Notes under the pieces: generated by a model | Seen by the model: only the letters and a program-made list of their open reading frames with translations | Database searches by the model: none | What the model was told of the DNA's origin: nothing | In this document: positions 4,236-12,666 of the stretch, piece after piece | Position numbering within the stretch: the first letter of the stretch is position 1 | Layout of the letters: each line of letters opens with the position of its first letter | Position numbers and translations under genes: made by a program | DNA from: a virus | IMG/VR virus record: IMGVR_UViG_3300046782_000609 | Span: 1 to 28,249 of that record | Direction: 5' to 3' (one strand) | Length of the DNA stretch: 28,249 nt

Positions 4236-4749
4236 ACGACTGGAGATCGGCGTGCGTATCGCGATCACGCGGCGGCATGGCTGGTATGACAGCACGTGCG
4301 AAGCATGCGGCTTTCACGTCTGTAACTGCGCCGCGGCTGCTAAGCTAAAGGCATCCCAAGAGCCCGCATTCATAGGCCCAAAGCCCCCGGTCAACAGCGA
4401 CTACATCTCCCTGCGCGACCTCGAAGCGGCGGAGCGGCGGATGATGGAGATCAAGGAAGCCGAGCAAACGATGAAGCTCTGGAAGAGCAAGCTCGAAGTC
4501 GCGCTCGAGGCCGAGAAGATGCGCACGGTCAACGCGGACCAGTTCTTCCGCCAGCTCGATCAAATGCAAGGGGTGGCAGGGCAGCAAGGACAGCAGATGC
4601 TGTCACCCTCGCCCGCCATGTCAAACAGTTGGCAGATAATGTCACTGCCGCCGGAGCGCAATGCACTCGGTGCAAGCGGCGACCTGAGCTCGGCCGTAGG
4701 GTTTGCGATGTATGCCGCGAATCGGCCGCCCTTGCGTGCAGACGGCTGA
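4141..4749 (+). CDS. hypothetical protein with a Cys cluster and a coiled coil
   Basis: The product is 202 aa. The N-terminus is basic and low-complexity (MKKQKSQSWDAARSASRR). A compact cysteine group follows (CEACGFHVCNC, C-x2-C-x4-C-x-C) that could bind zinc. A charged coiled-coil segment runs over roughly residues 85-135 (DLEAAERRMMEIKEAEQ...), and the tail is Gln/Met-rich. I do not recognise a family. The start is ambiguous. ATG 4141 has GGAG at 4131-4134 but lies 95 nt inside the nucleotidase gene. GTG 4252 has GGAG at 4242-4245 and lies just after that gene's stop, giving 166 aa that still include the Cys cluster. The 3' end overlaps the HNH-ligase gene by 121 nt. Confidence 0.55.
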   Translation: MKKQKSQSWDAARSASRRPLPRPRQELQPVGERLEIGVRIAITRRHGWYDSTCEACGFHVCNCAAAAKLKASQEPAFIGPKPPVNSDYISLRDLEAAERRMMEIKEAEQTMKLWKSKLEVALEAEKMRTVNADQFFRQLDQMQGVAGQQGQQMLSPSPAMSNSWQIMSLPPERNALGASGDLSSAVGFAMYAANRPPLRADG

Positions 4750-5933
4750 AGCTCCAGGCCATCACGGCCTACGGCGAAGTCTGCCAATGCTGCGGTGAAG
4801 AGTTTCTCGACTTCTTGCAGCTCGATCATATTCACAACGATGGTGCCGCGGAGCGGGCTGGTCGCGGTCCCCGCGGCACCAACTTTTATCGCGCGCTGCG
4901 CAAAGCAGGCTGGCCGCAAGGTCGTCTCGCTGTGCTCTGCGCAAACTGCAACGTGGCGAAGCACATAAACAAGGGGTTTTGCCCATGCAGACGCGCCAAG
5001 ACTATGTCCATCCATTCCTATCCCAAGATCCATCACGAGGGCCACCGCGAGCTCAAGAAACTGTTCAACGGCCCAGTCGTTGTCGAAGAGAAAGTCGACG
5101 GGAGCCAGATCTCGTTCGGCGTGATCGACGGCGAGCTTTATGCGCGCTCGAAGGGCGCCGCGCTCGATCTCGACTCACCCGACAAGCTCTTCGCCTCGGC
5201 AGTCAGCACGATCAAAGAGCTTCGGCCAAAACTCGTGCCAGGTGCTGTTTACCGCGGCGAGTACCTGTCTCGACCGAAGCACAACACTTTGCCCTATGAC
5301 CGTATCCCGGCACAGCACATCATGCTCTATGACATCGAGGTAGAGCATAACAACTATGTAGATAGACTCTATCTTGCTAACACGGCAGCCTACCTCGGTC
5401 TCGAAACGGTGCCCTGTTATTTCTGGGGCAAGCTCGCGAACTTCGGCGAATTAGCCCAATTCATGGGCCAGAAGTCCGCACTCGGCGGAGTCGAAATCGA
5501 AGGCATCGTCGTCAAGAACCACGGCCAGTTTGGCGCCGATGACAAACCTCTGATGGCCAAGTTGGTGCGCGATGGCTTCAAAGAGCTCAATTCTGGCGAG
5601 TGGCGTTCAGCGAATCCGACGCCGACTGACATCCGCGAGGCGATCGGTCGTCTGGTCAGCACGCCGGCTCGCTGGGAGAAAGCGGTTCAACATCTGCGAG
5701 ACGCCGGCAAGCTCACCGAAAGCGTCAAAGACATTGGCCCCGCGATCAAAGAGCTCCAGGGCGACATCGACGAGGAGTGCAAAGAGCTCATCATTGAGCG
5801 ACTTCTCGCGTGGGCTTTGCCGACGATACGCAGGCGCGCAGTCGCAGGGTTCCCCGATTGGTACAAAGCCCGCCTGGGTGCCGCTAACGATAACGATGCC
5901 GCTGAACTACCACTGGCGAGCTCTGGCACATGA
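4629..5933 (+). CDS. HNH endonuclease – RNA ligase fusion protein
   Basis: The product is 434 aa read from TTG 4629. Residues 1-125 are a phage HNH nuclease. A zinc ribbon (C12/C15, C26/C29) leads to a second Cys pair C52/C55 and the catalytic LDHIHNDG (D66-H67). The last pair is LCANCNVAK (C104/C107, N108). Residues 126-434 are an ATP-dependent RNA ligase of the Rnl2/DraRnl sort. EEKVDGS carries the nucleotidyl-accepting Lys155, followed by VYRGEYL (208-213), MLYDIE (232-237), EGIVVKN (291-297), MAKLV (Lys311) and a helical C-terminal region ending WYKARLG. No stop separates the parts. Met126 (ATG 5004) falls exactly at the ligase beginning, but no clear ribosome binding site precedes it. 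RNA ligases of phages seal cleaved tRNA or other RNA ends. TTG is the only start that keeps the zinc ribbon. Confidence 0.8.
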   Translation: MADNVTAAGAQCTRCKRRPELGRRVCDVCRESAALACRRLKLQAITAYGEVCQCCGEEFLDFLQLDHIHNDGAAERAGRGPRGTNFYRALRKAGWPQGRLAVLCANCNVAKHINKGFCPCRRAKTMSIHSYPKIHHEGHRELKKLFNGPVVVEEKVDGSQISFGVIDGELYARSKGAALDLDSPDKLFASAVSTIKELRPKLVPGAVYRGEYLSRPKHNTLPYDRIPAQHIMLYDIEVEHNNYVDRLYLANTAAYLGLETVPCYFWGKLANFGELAQFMGQKSALGGVEIEGIVVKNHGQFGADDKPLMAKLVRDGFKELNSGEWRSANPTPTDIREAIGRLVSTPARWEKAVQHLRDAGKLTESVKDIGPAIKELQGDIDEECKELIIERLLAWALPTIRRRAVAGFPDWYKARLGAANDNDAAELPLASSGT

Positions 5934-6219
5934 GCTAGGGCAGGTGGAGCTGTTCGAGTCGGGCATGCGCCGGCTAGAGATGCTCGATGTCGAGTGGTAC
6001 GAAGACACGAAGGCATCAATTCTGTTCGGCGAGAAATACGGTCTGTCACTGAAGCTCCAAGTGCACGATCCGTTCTACGAACGTATCGCTTTGGTGCATA
6101 TCGACTATGTCGACTTCGAAGACGACATCGACGCTTTCGTTTTGAGCGTTCGCTGTGGCTATATCGGGCTAATTGAATCGCTTAGATCTGCTGCCATGGG
6201 CTGCAGCAAAGCGGACTGA
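5896..6219 (+). CDS. hypothetical protein
   Basis: The product is 107-108 aa from ATG 5896, overlapping the end of the ligase gene by 38 nt. It begins MPLNYHWRALAHELGQVELF and is rich in Tyr, Asp and Glu (VEWYEDTKASILFGEKYG, YVDFEDDIDAF). It is likely a small alpha/beta protein. I do not recognise a family. Its last 61 nt run opposite the end of the minus-strand amidase-like gene, so two transcripts collide here. The reading frame is open further upstream to 5572, but that part is in the shadow of the ligase and shows no family features. The start at 5896 is therefore preferred. Confidence 0.5.
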   Translation: MPLNYHWRALAHELGQVELFESGMRRLEMLDVEWYEDTKASILFGEKYGLSLKLQVHDPFYERIALVHIDYVDFEDDIDAFVLSVRCGYIGLIESLRSAAMGCSKAD

Positions 6220-6755
6220 ATCCGCGCGAGGGGCAGGGCGGGGCCGCAATCGAGCACCCCGCGGAAGCCCGCCACCATTGACAGGTCGACGACCTCGACA
6301 AGTGTGGGTATCTGTACTCTGAGCTGCCGAATCAGGCGCTCCAGAGCGTACAGCTGCTCGTCTGGGTAGCGTTGCCAAAAGCCGATGGAACAGTTCGGCA
6401 ATCGGTGCTTCGCGGCTACGATGTCGCGTTCCGGCAGCCTTTCGCCGGTAGAGACAGCGGTACCATCAGCCATGACGGGGCCGACATTGACTAGGGCGAT
6501 GGCTACGGAGAAGGAGTTCACGCCGGTTCGTCCGCCGAACTCACTCCGGCCAGACGTCCATGCCACTTTCTCGGTCGGAAGAACTGTCAGGATCTGACCA
6601 TCGCGACCTACGAGGTAATGCACCGACTGGCTCGATTTGCGGTCGAGATACCAGGCCTTCGCGGTCGCAAATGACTGCGAGCGCGTGTTACATAAGACCA
6701 CGAGCGACGGTGCCACGAGGGCTCCGCCGCGATTCGGCGAATACGAATCTGACAT
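6159..6755 (-). CDS. amidase_2-fold protein, probably catalytically inactive
   Basis: The product is 198 aa from the ATG at 6755. The scaffold matches the AmpD/T7-lysozyme type N-acetylmuramoyl-L-alanine amidase (PF01510): SPNRGGALVAPSLVVL, then SVHYLVGRDGQILTVLP, KVAWTSGRSEFGGR, NSFSVAIALVNVG, WQRYPDEQLYALERLI and LDCGPALPLARI. The active-site positions are changed. The first zinc His is Cys22 (VLCNT for VLHYT). The catalytic Glu is Ala87 (VAIALVN for IGIELVN). The second zinc His is Phe164 (AGFRG for GHSD). About five residues are missing before the retained Asp169. Active members cut the MurNAc-L-Ala bond of peptidoglycan; this one probably only binds cell wall or a partner. It is the only minus-strand gene among the + strand early genes, and no ribosome binding site is visible. 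Confidence 0.75.
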   Translation of the reverse strand: MSDSYSPNRGGALVAPSLVVLCNTRSQSFATAKAWYLDRKSSQSVHYLVGRDGQILTVLPTEKVAWTSGRSEFGGRTGVNSFSVAIALVNVGPVMADGTAVSTGERLPERDIVAAKHRLPNCSIGFWQRYPDEQLYALERLIRQLRVQIPTLVEVVDLSMVAGFRGVLDCGPALPLARIQSALLQPMAADLSDSISPI

Positions 6756-6771: not shown

Positions 6772-7071
6772 ATGGCTAGTTCATCAGCAGCAGCAACTGT
6801 CATTCGGCGCCCCATGCCAATCATCGAGCGCATGCGCATCCCCGCCGCGGTCTCGAAGCGCGAGCGCTTCATGGCCACGCCAGTCGGCGACAAGGAGCTC
6901 GAGATGCTCTGCGAGCTGATCCGCTATGACGGGTTGCAAGACATAGCTAAAGCAATCGGCATCTCAGAGCTGACGCTCTTGCGCGTGTGCTCGGGGTTCA
7001 TCGACCGCTGCCGGCCCAAGTCGCAGCATGCCGTTCGGAAGTTCTTTGCGCTGAGCGCTAACGAAAAGTGA
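6772..7071 (+). CDS. helix-turn-helix DNA-binding protein
   Basis: The product is 99 aa from ATG 6772, which has a good ribosome binding site (GGAGG at 6757-6761). After a basic N-terminus (IRRPMPIIERMRIP, SKRERF) a helix-turn-helix is visible at about residues 45-75: ELIRYDGLQDIAKAIGISEL followed by TLLRVCSGFI. The last part, RPKSQHAVRKFFA, looks like a further basic helix. It probably binds DNA. Because it is the first gene after the minus-strand amidase-like gene and is coupled to another DNA-binding protein, a regulatory or packaging role is possible. The frame is open upstream to 6637, but that part is antisense to the amidase-like gene and has no ribosome binding site. Confidence 0.6.
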   Translation: MASSSAAATVIRRPMPIIERMRIPAAVSKRERFMATPVGDKELEMLCELIRYDGLQDIAKAIGISELTLLRVCSGFIDRCRPKSQHAVRKFFALSANEK

Positions 7072-7670
7072 ACCCAGAGGGAGCAAACCCGGTCGGCGTG
7101 TTCAAGTATTCGGAAGAAGTGCGCGCCAAGGCCGTCGAGATGTTTCAAGCCGGCAAGAAGCCGGACGAGATAGGCGTAGAGCTTGGTTGCAGCGGTGCTT
7201 CGGTCTATGTCTGGGCAACCGCAGCAGGTGTCCGCTCGCAGCGAACAGGCCCGAGCAAACCGGGGCCTAAGCCTGGCCAAAAGGTCAACCAGACTATGTC
7301 TGCGGAGGAGCGCGACACACTCATTCTAACGATGTTCAAGCAGGGCTTGGTCCCCGCCGTCATTCGCAAGCAGCTGGGGATCAAAGGCGCTGGGACGGTA
7401 GGAAACGTGATTAGGAAGCACGGCCTGAACCCCTACGAAAACACGCCGTCCAGACACATCCCATCAACTGGCGCAGACGCAATGAAGCCCGAACAAACGA
7501 ACCTTGCTCTGCCGTTGTCTCCCGCAGAACAGATGCTCGCAGTCCGGGCCGCAAGGGCTCAGCCAGCGCCGGCCAATGAAGACGTACATGCGTTGCGTCG
7601 CACTATCGCAGCGCTGCGAACCGAGCGCGATGCGTTGCGCGCAGCGCTCGACGCCATCATTGGTCAGTGA
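7068..7670 (+). CDS. double helix-turn-helix, coiled-coil DNA-binding protein (regulator or small-terminase candidate)
   Basis: The product is 200 aa from GTG 7068, coupled to the previous stop (GTGA). Two helix-turn-helix units are visible. Residues ~14-52 read YSEEVRAKAVEMFQAGK, then DEIGVELGCSGASVYVW. Residues ~78-118 read SAEERDTLILTMFKQGL, then VIRKQLGIKGAGTVGNVI. A Gly/Pro/Lys linker joins them (PSKPGPKPGQK). The C-terminus (~165-198) is a heptad-like coiled coil (LRRTIAALRTERDALRAAL). The first unit resembles transposase-type or resolvase-type HTH domains. DNA-binding HTH plus an oligomerising coiled coil is also the usual plan of small terminase subunits, and no other small terminase is recognisable here. 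It is the last gene of the + strand arm and is followed directly by a terminator. Confidence 0.6.
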   Translation: MNPEGANPVGVFKYSEEVRAKAVEMFQAGKKPDEIGVELGCSGASVYVWATAAGVRSQRTGPSKPGPKPGQKVNQTMSAEERDTLILTMFKQGLVPAVIRKQLGIKGAGTVGNVIRKHGLNPYENTPSRHIPSTGADAMKPEQTNLALPLSPAEQMLAVRAARAQPAPANEDVHALRRTIAALRTERDALRAALDAIIGQ

Positions 7671-11400: not shown

Positions 11401-12666
11401 GCCCGTGCTGGCGTTCATGACAGCATCGTGCGTGCGGCCAACTTCCTTGCCGGCAGCTGCCTTCCGGTCAGCGACGTTCGCAGCGAGACGGTCTAGTGAA
11501 ATATCTTTGAGTGGGTTGTCGCCGGCTACATTGCTCGTATCCGGCAGTCCCATCTCTCGAGCTAGCGCACCGTCACGTGCAAACGCTGCGTGGTTGCCGT
11601 GTTTCGTGTTCTTCAACGCGCGAGCAGGTGAGGCGACAGCGCGACCCAGCTTCTCATTCGCTTTGGTCTTCAAACGCTGACCCAAAGCACTGAGCTCGGA
11701 GCCTACAGCCTCGCCGCCGATCACGGGCGCTGCAGCGATGAGCGCCGTGCTCATCGGATGCTCTGCGAATTCATGTCCGATCTGCTCGACGCGGTTGTCT
11801 TTGATCTGAGCGCCACGTGCAGCTGCTGCCGCGCCGAGGCCCTGCGCGCCGCGACCTACAAGCTTCGCTGCATGCGTAGCGTTGGGCAAAGCCTCTTCAG
11901 CGTCGCGCCCAAAACGCGCGACGTCAGCGCCCACCTTCTTCGCGGCATTGACGACTGCGCCCCCCGCGCCACGCAGCCTCGCAGCATATGCACCAGCTCT
12001 AGGGACGGCCTTGATGTAGTCGCTCGCGAGGCCGGCAAGAGGCTTCACGATGCCGCGCACTACCGGCGCAGCCTCGGTCGCGATCTTGCCCACTGTCGCG
12101 AGGCCGCGCCCGGCACCCGCACCGAGAGCCATGAACGCTGCGCCTTCACCCTCAGCTGTGCCCTCTGGGTGTCGTTCACGGGCTTGTTCGACAGGCTTCT
12201 CACGTACTGTTTGCGAGGGAGTCGCGCCGGCATAGCGCGCAGGTTTGCCGTCGACCGTGTGATCAGCGCTCGGTGCTCCGATAGCTCGAGCGCCACGGTT
12301 GAGCTTGTCGACTGCGCTGTCAAAGAGCTTGTTGACATAGGTACCGCCTGTGAGCGAGTGGTATGCACCCTCGGCCCAGTCACGGTATGCCCCTTCGCTC
12401 GGCTTATCCGGGTCTGTGCCCGAGAATGCAATCGGCTTATCCTTCGCAGCGATGTGTAGGCTCGTATCCTCGGCGTCGGGAGTCGACAAAGGCTCGCGCT
12501 CAGGCTTGGTGCCAGCGTCGGCCGCATGCTTCTCATACTCGGCCATGCCCGCGTCGACTTCGTCGTCGGGCACGCCTGCATCGCGAAAATGCTTGGCGAC
12601 TGCCTCGGCGAAGGGATTATCGCTGGCCTGCGCTGCGGCTACTGGTGTTTTATTCTTGTCGCCCAT
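8479..12666 (-). CDS. giant proline-rich virion protein (putative internal/ejected protein)
   Basis: The product is 1395 aa, by far the largest here. Residues 1-150 are acidic and polar. Residues ~165-345 are Ala/Gly-rich and amphipathic (AAFMALGAGAGRGLATVGKI, KKVGADVARFG), a type seen in phage proteins that are ejected into the host envelope. Residues ~345-470 are helical. Residues ~475-1165 are a proline-rich region of degenerate repeats (separate entry). The C-terminal ~230 residues are charged and helical (LRQADAVQRDLMSELRKHER; AAKKKKLKEAEAAGQ). No lysozyme or transglycosylase motif is seen. The place after the nozzle-like gene and two other large proteins is that of the internal virion proteins of T7-like phages. 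The start ATG forms TAATG with the previous stop and has GAGG seven bases before it. Function is inferred from position and composition. Confidence 0.7.
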   Translation of the reverse strand: MGDKNKTPVAAAQASDNPFAEAVAKHFRDAGVPDDEVDAGMAEYEKHAADAGTKPEREPLSTPDAEDTSLHIAAKDKPIAFSGTDPDKPSEGAYRDWAEGAYHSLTGGTYVNKLFDSAVDKLNRGARAIGAPSADHTVDGKPARYAGATPSQTVREKPVEQARERHPEGTAEGEGAAFMALGAGAGRGLATVGKIATEAAPVVRGIVKPLAGLASDYIKAVPRAGAYAARLRGAGGAVVNAAKKVGADVARFGRDAEEALPNATHAAKLVGRGAQGLGAAAAARGAQIKDNRVEQIGHEFAEHPMSTALIAAAPVIGGEAVGSELSALGQRLKTKANEKLGRAVASPARALKNTKHGNHAAFARDGALAREMGLPDTSNVAGDNPLKDISLDRLAANVADRKAAAGKEVGRTHDAVMNASTGGTRTLPDGAVVNETVGDLAVPTEHIAADLEAAAKTHEFANAPEKAEVVRSHLSKLQPQPYEPEPPVKRAPLPQGPKLTDADSRSNPRAEAKRSGSVPEPKVVPPADPTTLNVTLPSSGAVGAPQVRNPVQPRPRPPYETPPEVPPAGYFPQPVSAGHYPQPAPPTAAPTPSLPPAPRDPGPPATQPAAPLGHYPQPSPHAPDHLTDWDEEQNLLQHHLGSHPQTPAGAFPSPPPELPSRPPYRLNLGTHPDSIKLRPSQPHGFRPSLEVPNLSMGDSPDRWLEEQALGRLNLGRNPQPTAGHFPQPELKGVGKFQGQEPPLEPHERPTARPPVRPQHGPPARLPAPSGARPANPPVEPPANLGARPDAPMGPAPSAGHYPQPTPAKAQPKPAPKLGARPETPAGYYPQPAKASLPNFAKPRPSMEPQPSAAKPHRPEIPEAFKPKQPKHPLRSYGTQNKKPKPVVVNGPKPAEAPTRLNLMQPRVGESFHRAPLGLGSPNLEPDFKQFEQEGPLARLNLGRLPATPAGAFPSRPHNDYDLEQPKLLGPANPPPFPQQVEPNQMQLHRPQLDLGGPSFQAGAPHAPSINLALPEQQGADPSRVNVRPRPMTGIAQPTHAQALLQPQPQSTRTPFQVSSRLRAPDPILPPHRPPPGSYVRPPNTAPKINLLPTEQRVDEPGRYQPKPFPFPAMSGPNVPIAGTGPHPQPSLGHFPQLEEPTLGASLHPQPPAGLNPQPTSPAPPDASQWLHGGVSQMYQPKRNQLVEPLNLLPENKPMRASPGLKLAEPMSPDYGPSHFTLRQADAVQRDLMSELRKHERQNNKPMRPGEDEAMRPIAYGLKAAKKKKLKEAEAAGQLPSNLPADSIGGPSLLTQLDKANAKHELIKGVEDKVAQGAAQEQKGSGSQDLIHKLLGEQRSLHTYGSIAQSVGDVIKSPNMSRGLSAGMSGYKSADYRDANEKLKKEIDEELNVPIK
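9170..11240 (-). repeat. proline-rich degenerate repeat region inside the giant virion gene
   Basis: Ten copies of a heptad-like core, (A/L)-G-x-(Y/F)-P-(Q/S)-P, can be read: AGYFPQP, AGHYPQP, LGHYPQP, AGAFPSP, AGHFPQP, AGHYPQP, AGYYPQP, AGAFPSR, LGHFPQL and AGLNPQP. Several are preceded by L-G-(R/S/A)-x-P, giving a composite unit of about 20 residues. Related (R)LNLG, INLLP and LNLLP elements lie between them. Spacing is irregular, so this is an old, drifted repeat rather than a recent expansion. Such a region is likely extended (polyproline-II-like). Confidence 0.75.

Follow-up and report, generated by a model that had tools for sequence, protein, structure and literature searches.

The window (G000, the whole stretch of DNA analysed, a virus record of 28,249 bases) encodes on its minus strand a protein of the Amidase_2 family that is very likely a retained but catalytically dead amidase, and probably an endolysin-derived pseudoenzyme which acts by binding, not by cutting. 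Two more phage species carry relatives of this pseudo-amidase (approximately 80–81% and 65% amino acid identity) with the same erasure at the same place.

Identification and Fold

The gene lies next to the late genes of the phage and has the following limits:

6159..6755, minus strand: pseudo-amidase, 198 aa; start ATG at 6755, with a possible alternative in-frame ATG 18 bases upstream, at 6773

The translation is unbroken over its 198 residues, as an earlier note made from the sequence had read it, and the assignment to the Amidase_2 scaffold in that note holds as well. The Amidase_2 profile (PF01510) matches with an E-value of 4.5e-15 and a score of 56.6 bits, above the curated cut-off of 26, which places the protein in the superfamily, and the motifs SVHYLVGRDG and NSFSVAIALVN are present. 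Structure prediction and fold comparison, both proposed in the earlier note, gave a confident AlphaFold model (pLDDT 92, from a 51-row alignment) with the fold of AmpD, T7 lysozyme and PGRPs. Using this model, Foldseek returned AmpD structures as the top solved matches (1,6-anhydro-MurNAc-L-Ala amidase; 2y28 and 2y2c, E 9.8e-10, 20–22% identity), and AmiD, PGRP and T7 lysozyme were also matched. Unlike AmpD, the protein has lost the catalytic and zinc residues, and it scores 41 bits against the NCBIfam AmpD cut-off of 143. Neither a transmembrane segment nor a tail or fibre domain was seen in it.

The phage homologues are annotated amidases of about 260–320 aa. Among them, the Amidase_2 endolysins of alphaproteobacterial phages (Thiobacimonas phage vB_ThpS-P1, Sphingobium phage Lacusarx and Roseobacter phage DSS3P8) share the same domain over its full length, at no more than 35% identity and without large gaps. 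These endolysins keep His/His/Glu/His/Lys/Asp and an extra C-terminal (SH3-like) region, whereas the pseudo-amidase retains only the Asp and ends after the amidase domain.

Phage Group

Parts of two longer IMG/VR contigs, G001 (59,765 bases) and G002 (36,627 bases), are 99.96–100% identical to the window, and the two further species with the gene are represented by G004 (61,268 bases) and G003 (61,194 bases). Since the ends of G004 carry a 127-base direct repeat, this genome is probably complete. The group is podovirus-like, with a P22-type portal, an SU10-type adaptor and a terminase, and it also encodes a family A DNA polymerase, a VapE-type helicase/primase, a serine recombinase and a ParA protein. 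The terminase matches a single phage record, at 27% identity, and the group (approximately 61 kb, uncultured) has almost no relatives among cultured phages and none that is close. Because its ParA is 62–63% identical to plasmid ParA, a phage–plasmid lifestyle is suggested for the group.

The accessory region of G001 (L010:6196-7521) contains a row of plus-strand genes of near-equal size (95–98 aa), possibly tandem paralogues, and this contig additionally encodes ParE-toxin-like, Uma2 and PadR-like genes. In the window, an RNA ligase is encoded at 4629-5933 (plus strand); within this frame, an HNH/endonuclease VII-like cysteine-rich stretch (about residues 10–116) comes before the ligase, and it is conserved in G003.

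Metal and Catalytic Positions

The comparison set consisted of 69 active phage homologues, aligned with MAFFT and checked by hhalign profile–profile comparison. All 69 have the same residue at each of six columns that serve metal binding or catalysis (zinc His, WHAG His, catalytic Glu, second zinc His, Lys and Asp). The homologue search patterns had partly chosen the Glu and Lys columns, but not the His columns. At these columns, the three species read as follows:

6690..6692, minus strand: Cys22 for the first zinc His (AmpD His34 position); Cys in G004, Ser in G003
6555..6557, minus strand: Thr67 for the invariant His of WHAG; Cys in G004, His in G003
6495..6497, minus strand: Ala87 for the catalytic Glu (AmpD Glu116); Ala in 3/3 species
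6282..6284, minus strand: Leu158 for the second zinc His (AmpD His154); Leu in 3/3 species
6255..6257, minus strand: Val167 for the catalytic Lys (AmpD Lys162); Met in G004, Ala in G003
6249..6251, minus strand: Asp169, kept metal-ligand position (AmpD Asp164); Asp also in G004 and G003, with the clade-specific Cys170 next to it

Asp169 is thus the sole catalytic or metal residue kept throughout the three-species clade. Where a catalytic amidase has His/His/(Asp or Cys) as zinc ligands, the protein has Cys22, Leu158 and Asp169, and the pair of Glu (or Tyr) and Lys is replaced by Ala87 and Val167, or by Ala87 with Met167 or Ala167 in the relatives.

The alignments agree with the earlier note on Cys22, Ala87 and the retained Asp169, but not on the rest of the site. 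The note had placed the second zinc His at Phe164 and a five-residue deletion before Asp169; both MAFFT and hhalign give Leu158 for that His. In addition, VVDLSMVAGFRGVLDCGP aligns gap-free with TTHEIIDTRGWKTDPGP by these two independent methods (99.7% in the hhalign profile comparison) and, therefore, the supposed five-residue gap does not exist. Compared with AmpD-type 'H...GRKxD' proteins, the pseudo-amidase carries one additional residue. On these alignments, the Phe164 assignment and the deletion are alignment errors, and two losses that had escaped notice are added, those of the catalytic Lys (Val167) and of the WHAG His (Thr67).

From this pattern, we infer that the protein no longer catalyses amide hydrolysis. 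A lysis enzyme that still works through migrated residues (e.g., Cys22/Asp157/Asp169/Cys170) is improbable. A migrated site is conceivable because Asp169 is conserved and so are Asp157 and Cys170, which adjoin the old site; some pseudoenzymes regain catalysis via migrated residues, according to a review (PMC10211241). This is also the sole lysin-like gene recognised in the genome, at the end of the late block. However, Cys22 is Ser in G003, and the Glu, the Lys and the second zinc His are absent in 3/3 species with no obvious replacement. Moreover, most of the old catalytic positions drift among the three species (C/S, T/C/H, V/M/A) while the scaffold is constrained, a pattern typical of a pseudoenzyme.

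Selection and Origin of the Loss

Following the proposal of the earlier note, more homologues with the same substitutions were sought in viral and genome scans, which gave three species in all and no bacterial copies; portal-anchored contigs were too short to extend to the pseudo-amidase gene. Pairwise dN/dS values of the pseudo-amidase, calculated by the Nei–Gojobori method, were 0.144, 0.19 and 0.202, which are approximate since synonymous sites are near saturation (dS 1.0–1.6). They are no higher than those of the adjoining genes (0.245 for the RNA ligase and 0.215 for a 208-aa gene) and indicate purifying selection. Independently of the Nei–Gojobori correction, change at third codon positions was 0.46–0.58 vs. 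0.08–0.27 at positions 1 and 2. The constraint spares the catalytic site: of 21 further columns that at least 90% of the active homologues share, 16–17 are kept, compared with 1–2 of the 6 catalytic ones (Fisher p 0.008–0.044).

A decaying pseudogene of the ancestral endolysin could account for the loss of every metal or catalytic position but one, for the absent C-terminal domain and for a long stem branch in the tree. Nevertheless, the gene is not decaying, because its frames are intact in three species and dN/dS is 0.14–0.20, with neither broken frames nor relaxed selection; synteny is also conserved, at 80% and 65% amino acid identity. Neutral simulations did not reproduce this pattern. 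Without selection, the frame stayed open in at most 3% of the runs and 80% identity was never attained; at d 1.05, neutral drift gave a mean amino acid identity of 17.5%, against the observed 80%, with a probability of 0.0025 that no stop arose. The pseudogene reading is refuted for practical purposes. The retained non-enzymatic role advanced in the earlier note is well supported by the losses shared among three species, by these dN/dS values and by the simulations.

In the tree, the three pseudo-amidases group together as a single clade (100/100). Its stem measures 3.34 substitutions per site and its inner branches 0.14–0.38; nearer active relatives, if any, lie outside the tree sample, which makes this stem length a maximum for the burst of change. 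As judged from the tree, there was one ancient loss, with fast change as catalysis went and renewed constraint afterwards. The gene would descend from an AmpD-like Amidase_2 endolysin of a phage. The common ancestor of the group would have lost both zinc histidines, the catalytic Glu and the Lys from this enzyme and kept its fold; a C-terminal SH3-type domain, present in most homologues, would have gone too if the original enzyme carried one. The present protein, which is under purifying selection, would be a pseudoenzyme.

Gene Order and Lysis Genes

The neighbours of the pseudo-amidase gene are the following:

6772..7071, plus strand: divergent neighbour, 99-aa HTH-like protein, 16 bases away; same divergent position in all three species
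7068..7670, plus strand: 200-aa HTH_23/transposase-type HTH protein; overlaps the end of the preceding 99-aa gene
5572..6219, plus strand: convergent neighbour; its 3' end shares 61 bases with the pseudo-amidase gene, and its true start is probably well inside the ORF

The gene order is identical in the three species, with the convergent plus-strand gene on one side and the divergent HTH-like gene on the other. The late block runs leftward from 28195 to 7869, and the pseudo-amidase is the next minus-strand gene beyond it, with the two plus-strand HTH genes between. The earlier note had described a lone minus-strand gene in a plus-strand block; its position among plus-strand genes is real, but it is more readily explained if the gene continues the leftward late block, from which the two HTH genes separate it. 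In phage gene order, an endolysin often sits at such a spot beside the late block, and the pseudo-amidase would occupy the endolysin position in this phage.

A minus-strand TATAAT just before the ATG was considered as a promoter, but the relatives do not share it in this form, and a search for a complete sigma-70 site gave none for the pseudo-amidase. PADLOC gave no match.

Amidase_2 occurs once per genome, G001 and G004 being near-complete. No second lysin was recognised in Pfam and PHROG scans of the G001 ORFs, the large G003 and G004 proteins and the G004-specific ORFs, or with crude lysozyme/peptidase motifs; this is absence of recognition and not proof, as ORFs below about 70 aa and uncharacterised late proteins may hold one. 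A PDB sequence search with the 1395-aa and 918-aa late proteins gave no match. The ORF at 1084-1683 of the window (plus strand) was considered as a lysin through PHROG 2252 ('endolysin; inhibits RNA polymerase') and rejected, with partial profile coverage and a better match to the dATP/dGTP pyrophosphohydrolase family; the PHROG label seems to be an artefact of fused domains. Small transmembrane proteins at 6170-6421 and 11581-11811 of G001 are candidate holin-like genes.

Function and Ligand

The pseudo-amidase would most likely bind a ligand without hydrolysing it, either in the former substrate cleft or on the former scaffold. Since no transmembrane segment was seen, it would act in the cytosol if there is no holin, and its ligands would then be muropeptides or proteins, not the sacculus. 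The earlier note had named cell-wall binding, host recognition and sensing as candidate roles. Of these, host recognition is unlikely: the protein showed neither a transmembrane segment nor a domain typical of tails or fibres, and its gene is not part of the block of virion genes.

Animal immune receptors include well-known pseudoenzymes with this fold. PGRPs that have neither catalytic activity nor zinc still bind peptidoglycan (PMC8124813), and PGRP-SA and PGRP-LE likewise have the same fold, have lost the zinc site and are retained. The combination seen here, a zinc site that is gone, a fold that is kept and a protein under constraint, is that of a non-catalytic PGRP-like protein. Unlike these receptors (13–16% identity), it is a phage protein and its loss includes both zinc His. 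By analogy with them, peptidoglycan or a cytosolic muropeptide would be the likeliest ligand, held tentatively, as confidence lies below one half for any single ligand.

A phage or host protein partner comes second by analogy with T7 lysozyme and is rather unlikely: the dead fold would bind and modulate a polymerase or another protein. T7 lysozyme, with the same fold, does not need zinc to inhibit its RNA polymerase (PMC5445346), the T7 RNAP–lysozyme complex (1aro) is among the fold matches and the gene is divergent from HTH genes. However, T7 lysozyme is still an active amidase, the pseudo-amidase is nearer to AmpD in Foldseek and neither Pfam nor PHROG scans of G001 recognised a phage (T7-type) single-subunit RNA polymerase. 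The share of confidence left by muropeptide binding, partner binding and migrated catalysis goes to roles outside those considered, or to decay.

Partial coverage of the open-access literature gave no example of a phage pseudo-amidase and nothing directly relevant. A still more speculative and unlikely proposal is that this phage lineage turned its only endolysin into a non-catalytic regulator that binds muropeptides or a partner (e.g., one that monitors cell-wall turnover and thereby times lysis or lysogeny), the host being lysed by another protein not yet recognised. Pipeline names such as 'N-acetylmuramoyl-L-alanine amidase' or 'endolysin' would misstate the activity of this gene. A phage that retains a dead amidase where its endolysin would be expected, and in which no further lysin could be recognised, raises the questions of what a dead lysin binds and how the phage opens its host.
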